This document shows, in pieces, positions 2,843-31,224 of a stretch of DNA of 33,232 nucleotides. This stretch comes from Chitinophaga pinensis (lineage in GTDB: Bacteria > Bacteroidota > Bacteroidia > NS11-12g > UBA955), in the NCBI GenBank assembly GCA_945888525.1, contig CAMDAF010000028.1:1-33232 (forward strand). The letters run 5' to 3'. The notes beneath the pieces were generated by a model. It did no database searches and was not told the origin of the DNA. It worked only from the letters and a program-made list of their open reading frames with translations. Position numbers and translations under genes: made by a program. Numbering within the stretch: the stretch's first letter is position 1; each line of letters opens with the position of its first letter.

Positions 2843-3259
2843 TTACATTTGTCTATTCGAAGCAACCCACCCGTTGATGTACGAAACAATATCAACTGTA
2901 GAAGTGCCTGGGGCGAACAAACGGGCTACGCCTTGTGCATTGAGGCTTAGCATGTCATCGTCAGGTATAATACCACCGCCAATAAGCAATACATCTTTCA
3001 ATTCTTTTTCCTTCATCACCTGAATGATTTTTGGAAACACGGTGTTGTGTGCACCAGACAATATGCTAACACCAATGACGTCAACGTCCTCTTGCAAGGC
3101 TGCGTTTACAACCATTTCAGGGGTTTGTCTGAGTCCTGTGTAAATAACTTCCATACCAGCGTCTCTTAAGGCTGTGGCAATAACTTTTGCGCCGCGGTCG
3201 TGACCGTCGAGTCCGACTTTTGCGATTAATACACGAATTGGTCTATTGATAGTACTCAT
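2843..3259 (-). CDS. stand-alone cobalamin-binding domain, methylmalonyl-CoA mutase type
   Basis: These 138 residues form a complete B12-binding domain. The DxHxxG signature is D18-G-H20-D-R-G23, where the histidine replaces the lower ligand of cobalamin; SIL at 65-67 and GGG at 94-96 are the other nucleotide-tail contacts of the family. The closest relatives are the C-terminal domain of methylmalonyl-CoA mutase and the small subunits of related acyl-CoA mutases, so it probably partners a separate catalytic subunit that is not in this window. Its ATG overlaps the stop of the lipoprotein gene by one base (TAATG), so it is the third gene of a gltX-led cluster. The partner and the exact acyl-CoA substrate are inferred only at family level. 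Confidence 0.88.
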
Positions 3260-3783
3260 TATTGAATGCGTTTAAATTTTATGGCAGCTCGGCGTTTCAT
3301 GAATTTCTCACAATACGCTTTAAATGCTTGGTTGTCCATGGTGTATTCACCACTTTCTTTTCCTGTTAATTCTAGGCCTGCGCGTTTCATACGCTTAACA
3401 CTTTTCTTGGTCAACACCAATTTGTAAACATACAAATTGTTGAGGTCGAACTCGAAAGGGTAAACAAACCATGCGTGCTTGCCCAGGCTGTCGGTGTGGT
3501 GCACGTTGATGTAGTAAAAGTCGCCCAAATGACTCAAGGTATTGTTGCTGTCGTTTTGAGCCAATATGCCCGACACCAAAGGATCATTGCTGATAACACC
3601 ATTGGCCCCGATAGAGACCACATGGGTGTCATTGTAGCCTTGGTGTTTTTCAATGAACTGGTATTTGCCGTAAATGCTTTCTGGAAATGTTTTAATAATA
3701 ACTCCTGGACGGGCGGTAAAGCTCGCCATTTGACAGGCACTGAGTAAAACTATAAAAACAAAGTAGGCAAAACCTTTTTTCAT
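3259..3783 (-). CDS. small lipoprotein of unknown function
   Basis: The 174-residue protein begins [18 protein letters not shown]: a lysine-rich start, a hydrophobic stretch and an LSAC lipobox, so it should be exported and lipid-anchored at the cysteine. The frame stays open 22 codons further upstream into gltX, but ATG 3783 is the start that gives a lipoprotein signal. The mature part has no domain I recognise; it is rich in aromatic residues and ends in a strongly basic [11 protein letters not shown]. It starts one base after the gltX stop and its own stop overlaps the start of the B12-domain gene, so the three are probably co-transcribed. Confidence 0.75.
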
Positions 3784-3784
3784 A

Positions 3785-5314
3785 TTATGCAGTTTGTGAA
3801 ATTTTTTGAATAGCCGTTTTGATACGCTCTGCTGATGCTTGAAGACCAATCAGCACAAGCATTTCGTACAAAGGCGGTCCACCTGCTTCGCCGCTCAAAC
3901 ATACCCTTAACGGTTGCATCAAAGAACCAGGGTTAATGCCTTGCTCGGTGGCCATTTGCTTCATTGCGGTTTCAACTTCTGTAGCGCTTGCATCCTGCAT
4001 TTTCGCTAAACTATCTGCAAAAGCATCTAAAAACGCAGCCACTTGTGGGTTCCATTTTTTAGCCACTACCTGCTCGTCGTATACTTTAGGCAATTCAAAA
4101 AAGAATGCAGACTTTTCTATTATCTCGTGTTTGAAATTTACTTTCTCACGGATCAGTTGCACCACTTGGGTTAAATAATCCAATGTGGTTTCGTAACCTT
4201 TCTCAGCAACATCAAACAAAATACTCTCAGCAATTTCTCTAGGATCTTTTAGCATAAGGTGTTGGTGGTTAAACCACTTCGCTTTGTCAGGGTCAAATTT
4301 TGCCCCGTTCTTGCTTATCTTTTCTATGCTGAACAATTGTATCAACTCGTCCATACTAAACAACTCGCGGTTGTCTGAAGTATGCCAACCCAATAGGGCC
4401 AACATGTTCACCACAGCCTCAGATTCATAGCCTTTTTCTTTGTAACCACTGCTGATGTCTCCAGTTGTTGGGTCGGTCCATTCCAATGGGAACACCGGGA
4501 AGCCCAAACGGTCGCCATCGCGTTTGCTTAATTTGCCATTGCCATCCGGTTTAAGGATCAAAGGAAGGTGAGCGAATTTAGGCATCACGTCTTCCCAACC
4601 GAAAAATTTGTACAACATCACATGCAAAGGTGCCGAAGGCAGCCACTCTTCACCACGGATAACGTGGGTGATTTTCATGGTGTAATCGTCAACTACATTG
4701 GCCAAATGGTAAGTAGGCATGCCGTCGCTCTTAAACAAAACTTTATCATCCATGGCAGCGGTTTGCACCAGCACCCAACCGCGAATTAAATCGTGGAATC
4801 TTACTTCTTCTTTTCTTGGTAACTTAATGCGGATAACATAAGGTTCGCCAGCGTCCAAAAGTCTTTTCACTTCGTCTTCACCCAGCGTCAAAGAGTTTTT
4901 CATGTTCATGCGGCTAACAGCATCGTATTGAGGAGCCATTCCACCAGCCTTTAACTTCTCGCGCATTTCGTCCAAGTCTTCTGTGGTATCGAATGCGTAG
5001 TAGGCATTGCCGGCTTCAAGCAATTGGTCGGCATATTGACGGTACATGGCTTTTCTATCGCTTTGGCGGTATGGCTCAAAAGGACCGCCCACGTGGGTTC
5101 CTTCATCAAATTTAATCCCAGCCCAGGTCAAGGAATCAATTATGTATTGCTCAGCACCAGGAACAAAACGGCCTTGATCGGTATCTTCTACCCTCAAAAT
5201 CATGTCTCCTCCTTGTTGTTTTGCAAACAAATAATTGAACAATGCGGTTCTAACACCCCCAATGTGTAAGGGTCCTGTTGGACTGGGCGCGAATCTTACT
5301 CTGACTTTCGACAT
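3785..5314 (-). CDS. gltX: glutamate--tRNA ligase
   Basis: The 509-residue class I aminoacyl-tRNA synthetase charges tRNA-Glu with glutamate in the cytoplasm. It begins MSKVRVRFAPSPTGPLHIGG, with the HIGH-type motif HIGG at 17-20, and carries the KMSKS-type loop KLSKR at 261-265. DQGRFVPGAEQYI and the C-terminal helical anticodon-binding part are present and the length is normal. The upstream sequence holds TAATTTCG (5322-5329), one mismatch from the Bacteroidota -7 box, ending only 7 bases before the ATG. It leads a cluster with a lipoprotein gene and a B12-domain gene. Confidence 0.97.
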   Translation of the reverse strand: MSKVRVRFAPSPTGPLHIGGVRTALFNYLFAKQQGGDMILRVEDTDQGRFVPGAEQYIIDSLTWAGIKFDEGTHVGGPFEPYRQSDRKAMYRQYADQLLEAGNAYYAFDTTEDLDEMREKLKAGGMAPQYDAVSRMNMKNSLTLGEDEVKRLLDAGEPYVIRIKLPRKEEVRFHDLIRGWVLVQTAAMDDKVLFKSDGMPTYHLANVVDDYTMKITHVIRGEEWLPSAPLHVMLYKFFGWEDVMPKFAHLPLILKPDGNGKLSKRDGDRLGFPVFPLEWTDPTTGDISSGYKEKGYESEAVVNMLALLGWHTSDNRELFSMDELIQLFSIEKISKNGAKFDPDKAKWFNHQHLMLKDPREIAESILFDVAEKGYETTLDYLTQVVQLIREKVNFKHEIIEKSAFFFELPKVYDEQVVAKKWNPQVAAFLDAFADSLAKMQDASATEVETAMKQMATEQGINPGSLMQPLRVCLSGEAGGPPLYEMLVLIGLQASAERIKTAIQKISQTA

Positions 5315-18131: not shown

Positions 18132-18219
18132 GTTTTCGTTGTGCAAAATACATGTTCCTCTTCAATTTCCTAATGACTTATAAAAAAGTTTTCCAAAAAA
18201 ACCCACGATTTTTCAAATA

Positions 18220-18558
18220 GAGATTACTTGCGTGATCTCCAGAGGGGGTGGCTTCAATTTGAATCGCAACCCAATACGCTTCGCGTGTGAAATTGAAATT
18301 CTAATATAAACTGAGATTACTTGCGTGATCTCTAGGGGGGGGGCTTCAATTTGAAACGCAACCCAATAAGCTTCGCCTGTGAAATTGAAATTCTAATATA
18401 AACTGAGATTACTTGCGTGATCTCTAGGGGGGCTTCAATTTGAATCGCAACCCAATACGCTTCGCAGCATATTCAAATCCTTAAAAGAATAGAGATTACT
18501 TGCGTGATCTCCAAAGGGGGTGGCTTCAATTTAAATCGCAACCCAATACGCTTCGCGT
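18220..18558. repeat. four tandem ~90-bp repeat units, each opening with a hairpin
   Basis: Units begin at 18220, 18313, 18405 and 18492 (spacing 93, 92 and 87 bases). Each opens with GAGATTAC-TTGC-GTGATCTC, which as RNA folds into an 8-bp stem (one G-U) with a 4-base loop. A G-run of varying length follows (5 to 9), then GGCTTCAATTTGAATC and GCAACCCAATACGCTTCGC, where ACGC-TTC-GCGT can form a second small stem. Units 1 and 2 share a tail GTGAAATTGAAATTCTAA whose AAATTGAA pairs with the TTCAATTT of the core; unit 3 has a different tail and unit 4 stops at about 18558. Unit lengths are not multiples of three, which argues against coding. Confidence 0.9.
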
Positions 18559-18562
18559 CTTG

Positions 18563-18630
18563 TTTTTTAACGCCTGCTGAAATTCACTCAAGCGCAGAGC
18601 CGCTTGGTGAATTTCTTGGGCGTTAAAAAA
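18563..18630. repeat. nested inverted repeat next to the array
   Basis: The outer arms are TTTTTTAACGCC (18563-18574) and GGCGTTAAAAAA (18619-18630). Inside them AAATTCACTCAAGCG (18580-18594) pairs with CGCTTGGTGAATTT (18601-18614) around a 6-base loop, with one bulge. The result is a long symmetric stem with A/T-rich outer ends, able to form on either strand and possibly a bidirectional terminator. Confidence 0.75.
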
Positions 18631-18653
18631 CCCATAAACCTTCGGTTTATGGG
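18625..18653 (-). terminator. intrinsic terminator of the tRNA-Ser gene
   Basis: On the minus strand, 13 bases after the tRNA CCA end, CCCATAAACC-GAA-GGTTTATGGG forms a perfect 10-bp stem with a 3-base loop and is followed by TTTTTT. This is a textbook rho-independent terminator for the tRNA transcript. Confidence 0.88.
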
Positions 18654-18666
18654 TTGCGTTTCAAAT

Positions 18667-18754
18667 TGGCGGAGAGTGAGAGATTCGAACTCTCGATACC
18701 TTGCGATATACACGCTTTCCAAGCGTGCTCCTTAAGCCACTCGGACAACTCTCC
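18667..18754 (-). tRNA. tRNA-Ser (anticodon GGA)
   Basis: The minus strand gives an 85-base class II tRNA plus an encoded CCA. The acceptor arms GGAGAGT and ACTCTCC pair; the D arm starts TGTCCGAGTGGCTTAAGGA; the anticodon arm CACGC-TTGGAAA-GCGTG carries anticodon GGA (bases 18718-18720), reading UCC and UCU; a long variable arm follows; and the T arm contains GTTCGAATC. The discriminator is G, as in serine tRNAs. Confidence 0.96.
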
Positions 18755-18887
18755 GTTTTCAAAGTGGGATGCAAAATAAATGTATTTTTATCATTTTGTC
18801 ATTACTCAATTACATTTCTATCTTTAATTTCGAAATCATACAAATCTGTTCAATCAAAAATCAATCTTTATTCTTCCTTTTTCAAGT

Positions 18888-23982: not shown

Positions 23983-26900
23983 CTATTGAATAGTATACCT
24001 CAATTTGACCCCAAAATTAGTCAATGCTGTTGGGAATGCATTAGACGCATGCGGTTTAGATGCACGGCGTTCATAGTAAATATTTAAGTTTACATTCTTG
24101 TTGACCATGTAGTTGATGTTTGGCTGTATCATAACAACCCTCTGACCACTTTGAATGGTGTTTGAGTTCAAATCAACCTGCCTGATTACAGTAAAATTAT
24201 TCTGAATACTAATGCGCATGTCCATCAACAAGTCATTTTCCAAGTATATTTTCTTGCCATTTACTTTGATAGGAATTTTAACCCCACTGGTTCTATAACT
24301 TAAATTAAATGAAAAGTCCTTTGACGTTAGCTCCGTTAAAATCGCATTTGGAACAGACAATGAAACATTTCTAGAACGGTTGATTTTAAACCCGCCTGTA
24401 ATGCCCGATTTGGTGGTAACGTCTATACCAATTAATGGACTAAACTGCTCTCTGATATTGACATTGTTGATGTTATACTGACTCACCAAGTCCTTGCCAC
24501 CTCTTGCCGTATCGTTTGGATTGTAATACAAGTTGCTGGTGTATCCACCAATATTGTAGGTTCCAGAATAACGGTGTTGCAGGGTTATATTGGTAAATAT
24601 TTTGCCCAAGGCTTTAATCTTACTTAAGCCATTGTAATTGATGTTCCAGTTTGGCAATGGAAGACTTCTAAATGGGCTCAAAGAAACCTTCGATTGATTG
24701 ATGCCAGTATAAGCAGCAAAGAAAGCCGGAATCAAAGTGTTTTGTGCCTTCGCGCCATATCCATAATAGTATTTGCCACCATTGGTTTTGTCAATACCCT
24801 TAAGCGCAACCCTTCCATCTTCATTGGCTTGCCTTTGTGATACCACAAATCTAAAGTTTTCGAAATTTTGGTAATTTGTACTTTCCCAATTATTCTTTGC
24901 ACTTGCTTTGTCGTTGGCAGTTTGGATAAAAATACCAGTCATTGTAAAGTTTCCAGTTTCCCTCAACGACAAGTCTCTCCATTGACCAGCAATGTTCTTG
25001 TATTCTCCGGTGGTGTCATATCTAAACAACGTTTGCAAGGTGTTTGATCGACTTAAGTTAAAATTCATTTGAATTCTAAAGTCTTTCATCGGCTCTAAAG
25101 TTGCACTACCCTGAATGGTCTTGATGTGGTTTTGAGAATAGAAATTATTAACCCGCACATCATTGGTCAAAGCGCCCATCTGCGCTAAATTGTATCGAAT
25201 GTCTTCATTCTGACTGCCGAGTATAAACGGTATACCTGGCACAGAATGCGCAAAGTTCTGTCCAAAATAGTCAATTTGGTGGACGAATCCTGGCAACATG
25301 ATTCCATCTCTTAAGGTATAATTGACATTGGCATTTCTCACCATCATCAAGGCCCTTAAGAACCCAGTTCCAAAGGCTTGTTTTTCTTTCTTGTTTTTTT
25401 CTGTTGCTGCTGATCCTTTGTCATCAGCGGCAGGCCCTCCAGCCTTGGCTTTCTTTGTGCCTTGGTTGATGCGGCGCAACAATGGAATTTTATTGTACAG
25501 GGACACAAAATTAAACTGAGTATTTAAAGTTAACTCACGGCTATTTTGAATGGTATTTCCTAAGCTTGAGTATGCTGGTGGTGCCTGGGTCCAACCATAA
25601 TTAGCCCCATATCTAACTGTTGAGGTTATCCAATTTAAAATACCAACTTTATCAAATGGTAAGGAGTAGTTGAAGTTAGCAATTTGGTTAAAATCTCTCA
25701 TCCTACCCAAAGCCCAAAAGTCGTTGCGGACAGAGTCTTTCTTTTCTTGGGTGTTCAATTGGCCAAATGGCTCTTGAATACGCGAATTAACGGTGGCCGA
25801 ATAGTCTAATTTCAAATTTTTAGTAATTGGATAATTGACATTGTAAACCCTTTGAATGGTAAAATTCTTATCGAACAATCGCGGCGTTAATTGCTTAAAC
25901 AAATCATTGTTCCTGGCCAACATTTCAGAGTAGTAACGGTCGACATCCATACGGATTGAAATGTTTTGAGGCAGTGCACGGACATTAAAGTCTCTGATCA
26001 AAGCCAAATGCTTGCTCTTTATAAACTTAAATGGCTCCCATGGTTTTGATTTAGGGCTGTACATATACCCCAAACTGCCATGGTAAGTTTTGCTGTACTG
26101 CTGCTCAACTTGAATGTTGCGTTTTTGAAGGTAAATATACGAATAGGTAAAGTTAAAATTCGAAATACTCCAAGGCATAATTTTACCTGAACCCGTTTGG
26201 TTTTTTCTAACGTTTGTAAAGTTTACACTATACCTGGTATTGTAATCTTCTGCATTGCGCAAAACTTGCTTTTTCTGATCGTCTGGCAAGCGCTCAACAG
26301 CCGTTTTTAACTCAATGTCTGGATTTAATGGATTAAACTTAGGTCTTACAATGGTTCCACTGTAGCCAACAAACATCGGTATGTTATAACCTGACTTTTG
26401 TGGGAAGAATTTCCCTAATTCAAAACTAGATGCCAAGTCAAATTGATAATTGTCTGCCAAGTTTCTTTCGTTAAGTCTTTTATCTATTCCACCAAATCCA
26501 ATGGTTGAAATATTTCCAGAAGCAGACAATGTTGCAAAGTCAGCCATTTGTGCAACCACTCTGCTGGTTGCAGCCCAACCGCCTTTGTTGGTAATGTCGG
26601 TAACGCGCAACTCGTTAAACCAAACCTCGCCACATTTTGACTGGTCTGTATTGTTTCTAACCCCTAGCATAATGGTGCGCACATTACTCAAATCGGGCAG
26701 GCCTAATACGGTAATCTTATGCCCTTTGTCGTTGTAATAAAAGAAAGGTCTTGTGAGTTGCACATTGCTTTCACTTCTCTTGTTCTTGGCATTGAACAAA
26801 TCGGACAATTCAAAATCAAATGCGTTTTCAGATTTCCAAATTTGGTCTTCTGAATACGTGCCATCTGGGGTCATCTTTAACGGAATTTCATACTCGTAAT

Positions 26901-29900
26901 AGTTTCCTACCAAATCAGTTCCCAAACGGATAAATGCTGAAATATCGCCGTCTTTCAAATCTGTACCTTCAGCATGCACAAACATTTTTAGGTTTTTGTA
27001 GTTCCGGATATCAAAGTTGGATGTTTTATAGGCTCCTCTTGAATCTCCTGGCTTTAAATTACAAACTCTAAGTGACAATGACTGCTCATTTTGTTGCACC
27101 ACATTTTGAGATGCTGGGTCGCGCACCCTATCTATCCCCGGAGGTTCAACATAGCGGATTGGCTGGCGTTTTCCGTTTTCTTCAATGTTAACTGTAGAAA
27201 CCACAAAGGTTGTATTGTCTGTAGGGTCTAATGGAACCACTGCACCTGGTTTGGTTAGTGAATTCAAATACCGTCTCCAATCGGCGCGAACCAATTGCAT
27301 TTGCGCAAACCTCAAAGTGGTGCTGTCTGAAAACCCTTTCATGTACATGCGCATAAAACGAATAGACTTGAAGTCAGATATGTTACCAACTGATTTGGTG
27401 TATTCTCTTACTGGAATTTTAATTTGTATCCACCTAACTTTTTCTTTTTTGCCATTCTTTAAGGTCTTTTCAATTTCAGAAATATCGGTTACAAACCCCT
27501 TGCCTATTTCAAGGTCTTGCGGACTCAAACTAATTTCATAATTGAAATAGTCCTCCGTTTGGTTCATGGTAAAATCGCTGTTGATGTCTTCGTTATCTGG
27601 AATGGTAGATGCACTTTTTGGCGTGCCATCGTCTAATTTATCTAAAGTAGAATTGCCTTGTAAACTGTTGTAGGCTTTATACCTCGAAACAACCGACGCT
27701 TTAACATCATTGTATTCAGGACTTCTATTGTGTTTGTAATTGTCGTTAGAAGGATCATTCAGAGCTTTTATATAGATATCTGAATTTGCACCAAACAATG
27801 ACTGCAAATTGCTTAAGTATTGCGCATAAAAACTGCGCTCATCATCGTCGTTCATGCCATCCAAACCAACGTCTTGTAATGGCCTTGCCGCCGGTTCATT
27901 GTCGAAGGCACTGTTTAATTGTGGCAATACTGGAACACGACCAAAGCTAGAAGTATCTAGGTCATCCAATTTGCCTTGTGGATTAAATCCATTTTCAAAA
28001 ACCTTGCGTCTATCTGGCAAAATATCTTCACTTACGTTACCAAGATCAATGTATAATTTTCCTTTGTTCGTGGTGTTTTGATCGTATATGAATGGATCCA
28101 TCATCCAAATTTCTATGTAATCAATATTCGCCGCTTCAAAGTCGTTGCTCTCTATTCGGCGCATAATACCACCCCAAGCTTTAACGGGTTCCTTAAAGAA
28201 TCCGTTGCTGGTAAAGTCGTTGGTGGCATTGTAGTTGTACTGGCCTCTTTCTCTAGGATAAAATGCCAAGTCTAAAGTTGGTAAAATATTTGGTGCGCCT
28301 TGTTGGATTTGTTTGTTAGGAAAAACCTCATTCACAGAAATCTCACGCATAAAATGGTTGCTCTGCATTTCGACATCTACGGCAATATGCTCAGGTGTAT
28401 ACTTATCTTTTCTGTAAAAGGTTGGGTCAATATTATACCAAGCGATCTTTCCACGGTTATTGCCCCAAGATTTTTTATCTGTTACAGACAGATTCCATTC
28501 AGGGAATAAAACCGGTTGGTATTGAGGCAAACTTGCCAATTTCCAACTGGAAACCAATCTTAAGTCGAAGGTCGTTTCTGCACCTTCAAAGTCGTCCAAA
28601 TAACTTACGCCTCTGGTTTCGTTTTGTCCACGTGCTTGTCCTGGAAATATACGTGCATACTCCCACTGGCTGCTCAAACGGCTTTCTGCTTTGGTTTGAA
28701 TAAATGGCAAACGGTCTACCAATTTGGTTAAAAACAAGGATGGCGTTGAATAGCTGCCATCAAAACCGATGATGGTATTTAAAAGCGGTTCATCACCAAT
28801 ATTGGTCTTAGGGGTTAAAGCCCTTTCGTACATATGGAGAATGGTTCCACCCAAGATTAATTTCTTGCTTGCAGCATAATCAAAACGTGCACCCAACAAC
28901 GTTTTTTGTTGGATATTAAACATGCTGTTGCTTTCTGCAGATACTTTTATAACCGCCCCTGATTGCAATATGCCTTGGTTGATAATGCTCACTTTACCGG
29001 CATTGTAATCGACAATAAAATCGACGTTTTCTGTTAGTTTCGTCCCGTTGGCTGTTACCACCACAGAACCTTGAGGAACGTTTAAAGCATTTAAGGAAAT
29101 CTCATTTGAACTTGTTCCTTTGTAACTGCCTTTTAAGAAAAACTTATTGTGCGTTACATCTTGCTCGGCCAGCCACTTGGTGCTATCGTACAAGGCATCG
29201 TAAACATATTTGTTGGCTACCAAGGAGTCGCCGTTAAACTTGCGTCTTAAATGGTTGCCGAAAGGCTCTCTGACAGGAAAAATTACACGTCCGTTTTTCG
29301 ATTGGAAGCTTACGTCTTCTATGGCATCAAACACACCGTCAGGCTTTGCTTCACCTTGTCTGTTGATGCGGTCCATATTCATAACGCGGATCAATGGTGT
29401 GCCTCCGCTTAGTTCTGGATAAGCATTCACCGGCATGTAATTCAAATCAGCTCCCGAAGGGTCATCGTTGTAAATTACATTAAAGTTCAGGTCGTTTGCA
29501 TTGATGTTAAATGAACCTAAAGAGTAGATATTTTTCATCATCAATTCCCACATTGGAATTTTTGTTCTGATGATATTGTTCTTCAACATTTTAACCATCA
29601 AGACTTTTGAATCTTCCCTGGTGCTGGAAATTTCAGAAGCAAATTCCCCAACCTTGTAAGGTATTCCATTGTAGGTGTATTCAAATGCAACACCTAAAAT
29701 CTCGTCGTTATTTAACGCTGTATTTAAAGAAATGTAACCCAGTTTTTGATTGATGGTAAAATCATTTTCTCCCAATTGTTTTGCATAAGTGAGCAATTCG
29801 TAATCGAAGCCTTGTTTCAAATTAGGGAAACCCAGATTTAATGCATCAATGGATGTTTTTGATTGTCTAATTAGATCCTTGGATGCGGCATTGGTCAAAT

Positions 29901-31224
29901 CGGCGTACTGGCTATTTGAGAAATTATCTGCAACAGGATTTAGTGAACCGTTTATTAAAGTTTTGTTGTAAGGTGCTTTTTCTCCAATATCCATCAAGGC
30001 CAATACGTCGCGGGTATTGTCATAACTGCCGCCACGGTTGGTTACCCATACCTCAACACGGTTGATCACGATGCCCGAATTAATTAATGGCAAGGTAGAC
30101 ATCGCCCCATCAAATTGATCTTTGAAAAACTCAGACAAGAAATAGTGTCTATTTTGGTCGTAGTTGTGGGCTTGGATATTGAAGTTTGTTATTTGAGCGC
30201 CCCCATTAACGGTTGTTTCTGTGCGTTGACCTTTGTTTTGCGTCGCAATAACCGTCATTTTAAGTTTGCCAAATTGCCAAGACGTTTTGATACCAAATAG
30301 TGATTGTCCTGCTTGAATTAAACTTCCATTTAGCGGAAGGCTAACATTACCCAATTCGACAGACTTTAACATTTGGTCTTCTTTGCCAACCCAATTCAAT
30401 TTGGTTTGGTTGTCAAAATCAAAGGTCGCATCGGTATCGTATTTAATACCCAAGTTAAGGGCATTGCCAATTTTACCCTGTACGTTTAATTGAATTTTTT
30501 GATCAAAATCAAACTGACCCGTTCTTTGCATACGGGCGCTGTACATTGGGTTTCGAACGGTATTAAAAATACCGCCAAAAGTTAACTCCGCAGATCCACT
30601 TGGTTGAATATCGATTAGGCCGCCTCTAAACAATTTGTCTAATACCTCTGGTGTTTTGACAAGCGTTGGCGATTTGTTGTTGTTAAATCCACTTTGACCG
30701 GCATTGCTTTTAGATTTTTGATCAAAATACCGCTTGCGTTCCTCTTTTGCACTTTCGGCCATGTATTCATCGCGGGTCATCTCACGCAGCAAGGTTTTTT
30801 TACCTGCTACCTCCTTGTATTCTTCATACATCTTGGTTTCGGTATTGTATTCTATGTAGGTTTTAACAGAGGGGTCGTTGAGGTCTATATTGTTCTTATA
30901 CTTAGAATCTTCACGGCCTTTGTTGTCTTTAACTGGGTACAACAAATCATCTTTTTTACTGCTGTCCTTCCCTGCTTTTTTGCTTTTAGAGGTGTCGGCA
31001 GGCGCTGAATCAAATTCTTTTAGGCTAAGATTTTTGTCTGATTCAAATATTTTTGCGCCAAATTCTTCTTCGATACCTTCTATCGAAAGCGCTAATATTG
31101 GAGGAATTTCCATCCAAGCTGAGGCAGATCGAGAAAGCGTAATTAGTGGCAGTCCAGCAATACTGAACAACAACCACAACCCTCCCTTTGACCAAAGCTT
31201 ATTTAAAGACTGCGTTGGTTTCAC
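23983..31224 (-). CDS. sprA: SprA, outer-membrane translocon of the type IX secretion system
   Basis: At 2413 residues this has the length of SprA/Sov, the giant beta-barrel through which type IX cargo crosses the outer membrane and which is needed for gliding in motile relatives. Diagnostic stretches include RGQNETRGVSYLDDFEGAE near residue 865-885, WWFNELR-type text (CGEVWFNELRVTDITNKGGWA) and the C-terminal ALTNFGVKLRYTIQ. The start is GTG 31224, giving a basic start and a hydrophobic signal (GLWLLFSIAGLPLITL). Two charged lysine-rich segments stand out: about 72-115 after the signal and about 1920-1940 (TKKAKAGGPAADDKGSAATE), probably linkers or loops. It is encoded alone, with its cargo candidate next door. 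Confidence 0.97.
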   Translation of the reverse strand: MKPTQSLNKLWSKGGLWLLFSIAGLPLITLSRSASAWMEIPPILALSIEGIEEEFGAKIFESDKNLSLKEFDSAPADTSKSKKAGKDSSKKDDLLYPVKDNKGREDSKYKNNIDLNDPSVKTYIEYNTETKMYEEYKEVAGKKTLLREMTRDEYMAESAKEERKRYFDQKSKSNAGQSGFNNNKSPTLVKTPEVLDKLFRGGLIDIQPSGSAELTFGGIFNTVRNPMYSARMQRTGQFDFDQKIQLNVQGKIGNALNLGIKYDTDATFDFDNQTKLNWVGKEDQMLKSVELGNVSLPLNGSLIQAGQSLFGIKTSWQFGKLKMTVIATQNKGQRTETTVNGGAQITNFNIQAHNYDQNRHYFLSEFFKDQFDGAMSTLPLINSGIVINRVEVWVTNRGGSYDNTRDVLALMDIGEKAPYNKTLINGSLNPVADNFSNSQYADLTNAASKDLIRQSKTSIDALNLGFPNLKQGFDYELLTYAKQLGENDFTINQKLGYISLNTALNNDEILGVAFEYTYNGIPYKVGEFASEISSTREDSKVLMVKMLKNNIIRTKIPMWELMMKNIYSLGSFNINANDLNFNVIYNDDPSGADLNYMPVNAYPELSGGTPLIRVMNMDRINRQGEAKPDGVFDAIEDVSFQSKNGRVIFPVREPFGNHLRRKFNGDSLVANKYVYDALYDSTKWLAEQDVTHNKFFLKGSYKGTSSNEISLNALNVPQGSVVVTANGTKLTENVDFIVDYNAGKVSIINQGILQSGAVIKVSAESNSMFNIQQKTLLGARFDYAASKKLILGGTILHMYERALTPKTNIGDEPLLNTIIGFDGSYSTPSLFLTKLVDRLPFIQTKAESRLSSQWEYARIFPGQARGQNETRGVSYLDDFEGAETTFDLRLVSSWKLASLPQYQPVLFPEWNLSVTDKKSWGNNRGKIAWYNIDPTFYRKDKYTPEHIAVDVEMQSNHFMREISVNEVFPNKQIQQGAPNILPTLDLAFYPRERGQYNYNATNDFTSNGFFKEPVKAWGGIMRRIESNDFEAANIDYIEIWMMDPFIYDQNTTNKGKLYIDLGNVSEDILPDRRKVFENGFNPQGKLDDLDTSSFGRVPVLPQLNSAFDNEPAARPLQDVGLDGMNDDDERSFYAQYLSNLQSLFGANSDIYIKALNDPSNDNYKHNRSPEYNDVKASVVSRYKAYNSLQGNSTLDKLDDGTPKSASTIPDNEDINSDFTMNQTEDYFNYEISLSPQDLEIGKGFVTDISEIEKTLKNGKKEKVRWIQIKIPVREYTKSVGNISDFKSIRFMRMYMKGFSDSTTLRFAQMQLVRADWRRYLNSLTKPGAVVPLDPTDNTTFVVSTVNIEENGKRQPIRYVEPPGIDRVRDPASQNVVQQNEQSLSLRVCNLKPGDSRGAYKTSNFDIRNYKNLKMFVHAEGTDLKDGDISAFIRLGTDLVGNYYEYEIPLKMTPDGTYSEDQIWKSENAFDFELSDLFNAKNKRSESNVQLTRPFFYYNDKGHKITVLGLPDLSNVRTIMLGVRNNTDQSKCGEVWFNELRVTDITNKGGWAATSRVVAQMADFATLSASGNISTIGFGGIDKRLNERNLADNYQFDLASSFELGKFFPQKSGYNIPMFVGYSGTIVRPKFNPLNPDIELKTAVERLPDDQKKQVLRNAEDYNTRYSVNFTNVRKNQTGSGKIMPWSISNFNFTYSYIYLQKRNIQVEQQYSKTYHGSLGYMYSPKSKPWEPFKFIKSKHLALIRDFNVRALPQNISIRMDVDRYYSEMLARNNDLFKQLTPRLFDKNFTIQRVYNVNYPITKNLKLDYSATVNSRIQEPFGQLNTQEKKDSVRNDFWALGRMRDFNQIANFNYSLPFDKVGILNWITSTVRYGANYGWTQAPPAYSSLGNTIQNSRELTLNTQFNFVSLYNKIPLLRRINQGTKKAKAGGPAADDKGSAATEKNKKEKQAFGTGFLRALMMVRNANVNYTLRDGIMLPGFVHQIDYFGQNFAHSVPGIPFILGSQNEDIRYNLAQMGALTNDVRVNNFYSQNHIKTIQGSATLEPMKDFRIQMNFNLSRSNTLQTLFRYDTTGEYKNIAGQWRDLSLRETGNFTMTGIFIQTANDKASAKNNWESTNYQNFENFRFVVSQRQANEDGRVALKGIDKTNGGKYYYGYGAKAQNTLIPAFFAAYTGINQSKVSLSPFRSLPLPNWNINYNGLSKIKALGKIFTNITLQHRYSGTYNIGGYTSNLYYNPNDTARGGKDLVSQYNINNVNIREQFSPLIGIDVTTKSGITGGFKINRSRNVSLSVPNAILTELTSKDFSFNLSYRTSGVKIPIKVNGKKIYLENDLLMDMRISIQNNFTVIRQVDLNSNTIQSGQRVVMIQPNINYMVNKNVNLNIYYERRASKPHASNAFPTALTNFGVKLRYTIQ

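Follow-up and report, generated by a model that had tools for sequence, protein, structure and literature searches.

Organisation of the array

The window, by which we mean the whole stretch of DNA analysed (33,232 nucleotides), is one entire contig of a 2.42-Mb draft genome and contains, at 18220-18558, an array of four units that start at positions 18220, 18313, 18405 and 18492 (spacings of 93, 92 and 87 bases), together with a tRNA-Ser(GGA) gene (18667-18754, minus strand) which is convergent with the units. The first-pass annotation had described four units at these spacings beside a tRNA-Ser gene, each with a G-run and a conserved core, and had judged the array not to be CRISPR. This description was upheld: the same starts were recovered, the 20-mer GAGATTACTTGCGTGATCTC is identical at the head of all four units, TRF reported a single array (18220-18556, period 92, 3.7 copies), G-run and core are both present in the units, and a CRISPR reading was dropped as there are no unique spacers. 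With up to three mismatches allowed, the 20-mer was confined to the array within the 2.42-Mb draft genome. An LD-carboxypeptidase gene starts approximately 70 bases from the array, and a 2413-aa ORF elsewhere in the window (23983-31224, minus strand) has, by eye, the look of the type IX secretion protein SprA. The features of the array and the adjoining tRNA gene are as follows.

18220-18312, plus strand: unit 1, the most distal from the tRNA gene, with head hairpin (18220-18239), G-run and core, and trailer copy; no T-run terminator seen
18313-18404, plus strand: unit 2, with head hairpin (18313-18332), G-run and core, and trailer copy
18405-18491, plus strand: unit 3, with head hairpin (18405-18424), short G-run and core, trailer copy and a different tail
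18492-18511, plus strand: head hairpin of unit 4, the presumed attachment site; its left half is the tRNA T-arm half, its right half belongs to the element
18498-18685, plus strand: unit 4 as a complete element of 188 bp, from inside the head hairpin to the T-loop of tRNA-Ser, with boundaries placed by analogy with the tRNA-Pro insertions
18512-18528, plus strand: conserved core, N4-GGGGG-TGGCTTCA, in the place of a tRNA's acceptor strand
18529-18574, plus strand (the unit strand): inverted near-copy of the tRNA trailer, terminator-like hairpin and T-run
18580-18615, no strand assigned: central palindrome between two mirror-image arms
18630-18666, minus strand: terminator hairpin and trailer of tRNA-Ser, which unit 4 presumably brought in, as suggested by the empty tRNA-Pro sites
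18667-18754, minus strand: tRNA-Ser(GGA) with encoded CCA and with a T-loop (18683-18689) presumed to be the target of insertion

Followed along its own strand, a complete unit passes from the hairpin through a G-rich core to a near-copy of its tRNA's trailer and terminator, and in its second half from the central palindrome to the real terminator and trailer of the tRNA, in mirror image. In the window the unit tail ATTTGAAACGCAACCCA corresponds to the 3' trailer of tRNA-Ser(GGA), copied in inverted orientation, the outer three base pairs of the head hairpin match the T-stem of that tRNA, and the last unit extends to the T-loop at about 18685. Over 18210-18760, a segment that takes in the tRNA, each of the two strands has a much more stable fold than shuffled sequence (z about -8). 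No displaced tRNA fragment is recognisable in the window (2/14 identity), and no empty site for its own tRNA-Ser(GGA) locus was found in relatives.

Distribution and association with tRNA genes

When 59 related genomes, the own one among them, were searched at the DNA level, units of clear similarity turned up in further members of the genus, and a scan with one genome per species found the exact 20-mer in four records, two of which are labelled Bacteroidales and Marinilabiliales. Within the order, 48 of 108 genomes (own included) had covariance matches at E ≤0.05, and across the phylum a second model matched 19 of 395 genomes (own included) at E ≤0.001, the same geometry of unit and tRNA recurring in another nine of the phylum genomes sampled. 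The family is therefore widespread, yet present in few genomes of the phylum at this search sensitivity, and the possibility raised at first pass that the array might have no second locus in any genome is disposed of by the many loci found.

The first-pass annotation had proposed to record whether further copies neighbour tRNA genes: at 40 of the 54 array loci of the order (E ≤0.001) a tRNA gene lies on the opposite strand within 600 bases, and at none on the same strand. In 34 of these 40 linked loci the distance between the tRNA end and the start of the last unit is 150-187 bases, and the facing tRNAs are Ser (28), Pro (5), Cys (4), Arg (2) and Asp (1); a case with a Met tRNA occurs in the window's own genome. 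The remaining 14 loci comprise eight at contig ends and six that lack an intact tRNA, two of which still have part of a tRNA, cut within or close to the T-loop. The other four (L091, L114, L121 and L122) have neither tRNA nor recognised fragment and count against the linkage, three of them (L114, L121 and L122) looking like chance matches. By eye, the tRNAs at L111, L112, L118, L120, L129 and L029 (the last at 3000-4000) seem to have been cut within or close to the T-loop, as by a further insertion, with the 3' fragment facing the unit; some of these broken tRNAs are, again by eye, followed by an integrase-like ORF. Among the phylum matches listed outside the own genome with E <1e-4 and with downstream sequence present, units stand 153-260 bases before a convergent tRNA-Ser or tRNA-Pro; the two listed without a convergent tRNA (L181 and L189) are at a contig end. 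Thirteen further matches listed, with E of 1e-4 to 1e-3, include four with a convergent tRNA (L169, L172, L179 and L184) and nine without (L168, L170, L171 and L173-L178), the latter being probably due to chance.

In the window's own genome an inverted trailer copy is, by eye, correctly placed at nine of the 30 tRNA genes for which downstream sequence is available, namely Ser GGA, Ser TGA, Cys, Arg TCT, Arg ACG, Met, Lys, Leu TAA and Ala; the Leu TAA copy has no clear core, those at Lys and Ser TGA scarcely exceed the best shuffle, and the covariance models detect five of the nine. Inspection by eye found no element shared by two tRNAs of this genome, so that no recent jump from tRNA to tRNA is seen. 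Since arrays often end contigs, draft genomes probably undercount them. Three further observations were made at individual loci. Nine units about 102 bp apart extend over two contig ends of one genome (G152 C32 and C8; L162, L181), one end leading to tRNA-Ser(TGA). On another contig of that genome (C54; L278) a unit faces tRNA-Pro(TGG) and then tRNA-Ser(GCT), 163 bases off. In the own genome, at L136, L141, L145, L147, L148 and L160, the trailers of several other tRNA genes have a terminator arm resembling GAGAGTGAATGTGAAAGCG in common, and may form a second repeat family linked to tRNAs.

Occupied and empty sites

The clearest comparison was provided by tRNA-Pro(GGG) within one genus, where four genomes carry an insert in the T-loop (G093, 162 bp; G021, 163 bp; G083, 162 bp; G087, 163 bp) and six have an uninterrupted tRNA at the same base (G091, G095, G092, G090, G033 and G085). 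The flank query matched 13 of the 15 genomes of the genus, of which three were uninformative. Several matches to another tRNA with a similar terminator were left out of the counts, contigs ending inside the tRNA (G089 C116 and G095 C1) were not counted as empty, only the other tRNA was seen in G094, and G086 C137 is rearranged; on this last contig (L201) insert and host terminator are fused, as though the hairpin side had been deleted.

The four occupied sites are bounded by exact flanking repeats of 18, 18, 18 and 12 bp, and the element is flanked on one side by an intact tRNA and on the other by the displaced 3' fragment of the same tRNA. The element carries its own tRNA 3' end, trailer and terminator, repeats the latter two in mirror image on the opposite strand, and has the conserved G-rich core and a hairpin of which the element-derived half fits the T-stem of the target. 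Two features by which a tRNA-targeted integrative element is recognised, a direct repeat of the tRNA 3' end with a restored tRNA, and an empty site in relatives, were observed at tRNA-Pro; a third, an integrase encoded by the element, is absent. CCA is encoded in the tRNA-Pro of the occupied genomes and absent from that of the empty ones; an element with encoded CCA beside a displaced host end without it was read at L104, L108, L164 and L172, and CCA is encoded at neither tRNA end at L115, L130 and L167.

Over 47 loci, a displaced tRNA acceptor end (at least 8/14 identity) precedes the first hairpin at 12, against 3.5 expected from other isoacceptors, a clear fragment being lacking in the other 35. 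The match is locked to the T-loop, the mean peaking at one of ten offsets (0-9). At tRNA-Ser(TGA), in the genus of genome G372, which belongs to another family, the gene is intact in eight relatives and G372 has a displaced end; this comparison is weaker in that the flanks beyond the terminator are not alignable, and the 11 rows considered among those listed comprise the eight intact genes, two fragments cut in the T-loop and the query genome. All such comparisons were made mostly on draft genomes, in which arrays are often at contig ends.

Stacking of elements and intervening ORFs

At tRNA-Ser(GCT), two genomes (G006 and G011) have a type 1 element in the distal position and a type 2 element adjoining the tRNA, the two being separated by a displaced tRNA end, and a third (G004) has the two types in reverse order. 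The proximal element of G004 is 0.90 identical to the distal one of G006, the distal element of G004 is 0.77 identical to the proximal one of G006, and unlike pairs reach 0.58-0.69; these values exclude the distal piece of G011, which spanned three units. The swapped order is expected if elements enter successively at the tRNA; recombination among units would be another possible cause.

Inner units are often without the mirror half and the old tRNA end, a loss that would account for the window's spacing of 87-93 bp. Three arrays contain approximately 1 to 2.5 kb between units, with ORFs inside that are candidate cargo: the own genome has one of 306 aa on contig C18, G013 one of 280 aa, and G015 genes for AraC and a short-chain dehydrogenase. 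At a further locus (L039, G009 C47, 9850-13030), the array is separated from the LD-carboxypeptidase gene by two ORFs (298 and 605 aa), which are either candidate cargo or an unrelated difference.

Head hairpin and conserved core

An alignment of 22 units, from which a covariance model was built, gave G(A/G)GATTA(C/T)-loop-(G/A)TGATC(T/C)C as the usual hairpin, followed on its 3' side by about four loose bases, the G-run and GGCTTCA. The loop varies in length across units and the stem is kept, and one U-G pair of the hairpin is retained in 105 of the 106 testable sequences. The element-derived triplet of the hairpin equals T-stem positions 61-63 of the facing tRNA in 44 of 48 loci, some of them close relatives and hence not all independent (permuted mean 20.4, reached in 0 of 20000 permutations). 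The compensatory stem changes that the first-pass annotation had proposed to look for were found in part: among 121 aligned units, cells changed on both sides of the stem were in excess (80, against a shuffled mean of 21.9, 0/500), and two of the five measures, i.e. pairs changed (3) and pair types (11), did not rise above the shuffles, it being understood that the alignment was fitted to the model and that the shuffles ignore the relatedness of the units. By eye, the core resembles the D-arm of tRNA-Ser. A T-box-like pairing of the core UGGC with 3'-GCCA of tRNA-Ser was considered and dropped, as the T in question is not conserved.

Recombinase genes and the modelled excised form

The own genome encodes XerD, a XerC-like protein, two other integrases and one fragment, and these five PF00589 matches all lie on contigs other than those of its five model-detected arrays, beside which no recombinase was found. 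As the elements (162-188 bp) are too short to encode one, a recombinase acting in trans is likely. In genome G000 an integrase of 417 aa (C11:39283-40807; L222, L155) is encoded at a distance of about 1 kb from tRNA-Ser(GCT), and probably belongs to a larger integrated element. Modelled as an excised circle, the element adopts a stable mirror-image fold (z -6.7 to -8.4), both strands alike, and 0.75 of the bases are paired in the excised strand of the tRNA-Pro element. No homologs were found in viral contigs by two strict pattern scans or in phages by blastn, and plasmids gave a single weak match (Fusobacterium, E 0.3).

Discussion

Insertion into a T-loop with restoration of the tRNA 3' end is a mark of site-specific integration, according to the available text of the Islander study (PMC4383910). 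Based on the occupied and empty tRNA-Pro sites and the geometry shared across loci, we consider it very probable that the array in the window consists of stacked minimal, non-autonomous, site-specific integrative elements at the T-loop of tRNA-Ser(GGA), with a complete element measuring approximately 160-190 bp; the units are probably not a family of RNA genes. In the mechanism that we propose, a site-specific recombinase would insert and excise the element by recombining its hairpin (attP) with the T-arm (attB), the enzyme being most likely, we infer, a tyrosine recombinase supplied in trans. Newcomers would enter beside the tRNA and push older elements outward, whose displaced tRNA ends and half-palindromes would then decay to leave the approximately 90-bp units of the window, while the paired outward terminators may render the insertion harmless to the tRNA. 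Of the readings offered at first pass, that of a tRNA-linked element multiplying in place came closest, and requires amendment in that the element also inserts and that its presence and order vary between genomes; processing or termination signals survive to the extent that terminator-like hairpins are parts of the unit, and as the main account neither they nor small structured RNAs are supported, on the same two grounds of a missing promoter signal and empty sites in relatives.

It is highly improbable, in our estimation, that the units are small RNA genes convergent with the tRNA genes, each producing a hairpin RNA ended by its own terminator, notwithstanding the paired stem changes, the near-invariant U-G pair (105/106), the stable fold and the T-runs found at many loci downstream of the hairpin on the unit strand. 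Changes in the stem track the target tRNA, close relatives have empty sites, and a -7 motif precedes only five of 48 first units (shuffled mean 2.4, largest shuffle 7), while the same test was positive at 37 of 53 tRNA genes (shuffled 3.0); the test employed the Bacteroidota -7 motif in what we take to be its consensus, and an unusual promoter would escape it. Nor does Rfam provide a known RNA family, since only tRNA reached gathering score and the weak matches (E 0.24 or worse) were taken as chance, so that neither an own promoter nor a known family, the usual marks of a small RNA gene, was found. The trailer order (direct, inverted, direct), the hairpins at both junctions and the mirroring of the arms at each locus would also be produced by template switching on the palindromic T-arm and terminator, which by tandem inversion duplication would copy the tRNA 3' end in inverted orientation with no mobile element at all. 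We regard this as very unlikely, given that the core (N4-GGGGNGGC, ATTAY..RTGAT) is common to different tRNAs and families and is not a tRNA acceptor, that the arms of the tRNA-Pro element differ from the host's own trailer, and that two element types occur in swapped order.

REP-like elements moved by a RAYT/Y1 transposase (relatives of IS200/IS605) would likewise present an imperfect hairpin with a wobble conserved on one strand, and 12 of the 17 genomes from the genus have Y1_Tnp matches, above cut-off in 11. There is, however, no Y1_Tnp in the own genome or in the array-bearing G005 and G010, the flanking repeat is the tRNA 3' end, the 20-mer is confined to the array and the family to the neighbourhood of tRNA genes; dispersed intergenic copies with a resident RAYT gene were thus not found in the own genome, and this origin appears extremely improbable. 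The available description of REP/RAYT palindromes is of short imperfect hairpins in high copy between genes (PMC3733652), in contrast to units found beside tRNA genes. A MITE would show terminal inverted repeats and a short target duplication made by a transposase, and here the flanking repeat is the tRNA 3' end, locked to the T-loop. The 188-bp PINSR repeat of Prevotella was set aside, being scattered between genes at more than 100 copies per genome in the portion of the source available (PMC4755523).

How the stacked integrative elements move is a separate matter. Integron cassettes and CALIN arrays are stacked mobile units with a hairpin site of variable loop, in which genes are optional. 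An integron-like route, in which a folded single-stranded hairpin recombines with the tRNA T-arm (as attI) and the units are cassettes, some with genes, does not contradict the preferred explanation, and we hold it to be possible, if doubtful. It would fit the variable loop on a kept stem, the U-G pair that makes the strands unequal, the ORFs between units in three arrays, the changes in stack order and the largely self-paired excised strand; a double-stranded circle of approximately 162 bp would be stiff and is unlikely. Against it, ordinary double-stranded recombination is also available, and both element strands fold about equally well, so that energies favour neither. The head hairpin seems to differ from the attC consensus. 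The target here is a tRNA gene, and no integron integrase was identified among the four full-length tyrosine recombinases of the own genome, which fell below cut-off for TIGR02249 and NF011946; only NF040815 (archaeal XerA, whose description also names integron integrase) was just passed, by XerD (220.6 against a cut-off of 220). Taken to its full extent, this would be a phylum-wide cassette system in Bacteroidota with tRNA T-arms as landing sites, its mobile form being a folded, dumbbell-like single strand of approximately 160-190 bases whose hairpin mimics the chosen T-arm, acted upon in trans by a host recombinase (e.g. XerC/XerD), rebuilding the tRNA 3' end, sometimes with encoded CCA, and occasionally carrying genes; in this complete form we think it rather unlikely.

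NBU1, NBU2 and Tn6031 are of kilobase size. They are, in the part of the review available, tyrosine-integrase elements of Bacteroidota at the 3' ends of tRNA-Leu, Ser and Pro genes (PMC5704250), and share with the present elements the phylum and the choice of tRNA 3' ends; they differ in encoding their own integrase, the separation being made on description. The closest concept is that of CIMEs (cis-mobilizable elements) with tandem accretion at tRNA 3' ends, CIMEs being, in the same partial source, decayed ICEs or IMEs which keep their att sites, lack integration and transfer genes and stack at one target (PMC5704250). The tRNA-Pro elements likewise retain attL and attR without integration or transfer genes. 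A CIME is also expected to be mobilised in cis by a neighbour; other T-loop insertions seem, by eye, to adjoin units at several loci, and a common ancestry with them would be conjectural. The present elements differ from CIMEs in their size of 160-190 bp, in being usually geneless and alike in build over the loci seen, and in possessing terminators in mirror image and a hairpin adapted to the individual tRNA. The closest parallel to the T-loop insertions themselves is provided by the ssrA islands of Dehalococcoides, some of which lack an integration module; these differ in having a single target gene, in bearing genes and in using a serine recombinase, and the available part of their description mentions neither hairpin nor mirror-image arms (PMC3146451). 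Islander tRNA/tmRNA islands, as far as the available text goes, carry an integrase, peak in size at 13.6 and 39.9 kbp and include four tandems of three or more in the table; their T-stem crossover class shares the insertion in T-stem or loop, the restored tRNA and the displaced 3' fragment, and the integrase filter applied there would exclude the present elements (PMC4383910). The smallest cryptic integrated element reported for Thaumarchaeota measures 2.6 kb in the excerpt available (PMC6563490), and in the open-licence literature, as represented by such partial texts, no description of gene-less 160-190-bp units at tRNA genes was recognised.

If the elements are what we propose, they would constitute a class of mobile DNA about 80 times smaller than the 13.6-kbp island peak in the available Islander text, and one missed at least by finders that require an integrase (PMC4383910). 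They would explain the odd repeats beside tRNA genes of Bacteroidota, and would indicate that a mobile element is reducible to little beyond an attachment site and insulation. With many tRNAs and many hairpins, they would offer a natural series for understanding how a recombinase recognises the T-arm. The 3' ends, trailers and terminators of tRNA genes would, moreover, be subject to exchange by mobile DNA, including the gain of an encoded CCA.
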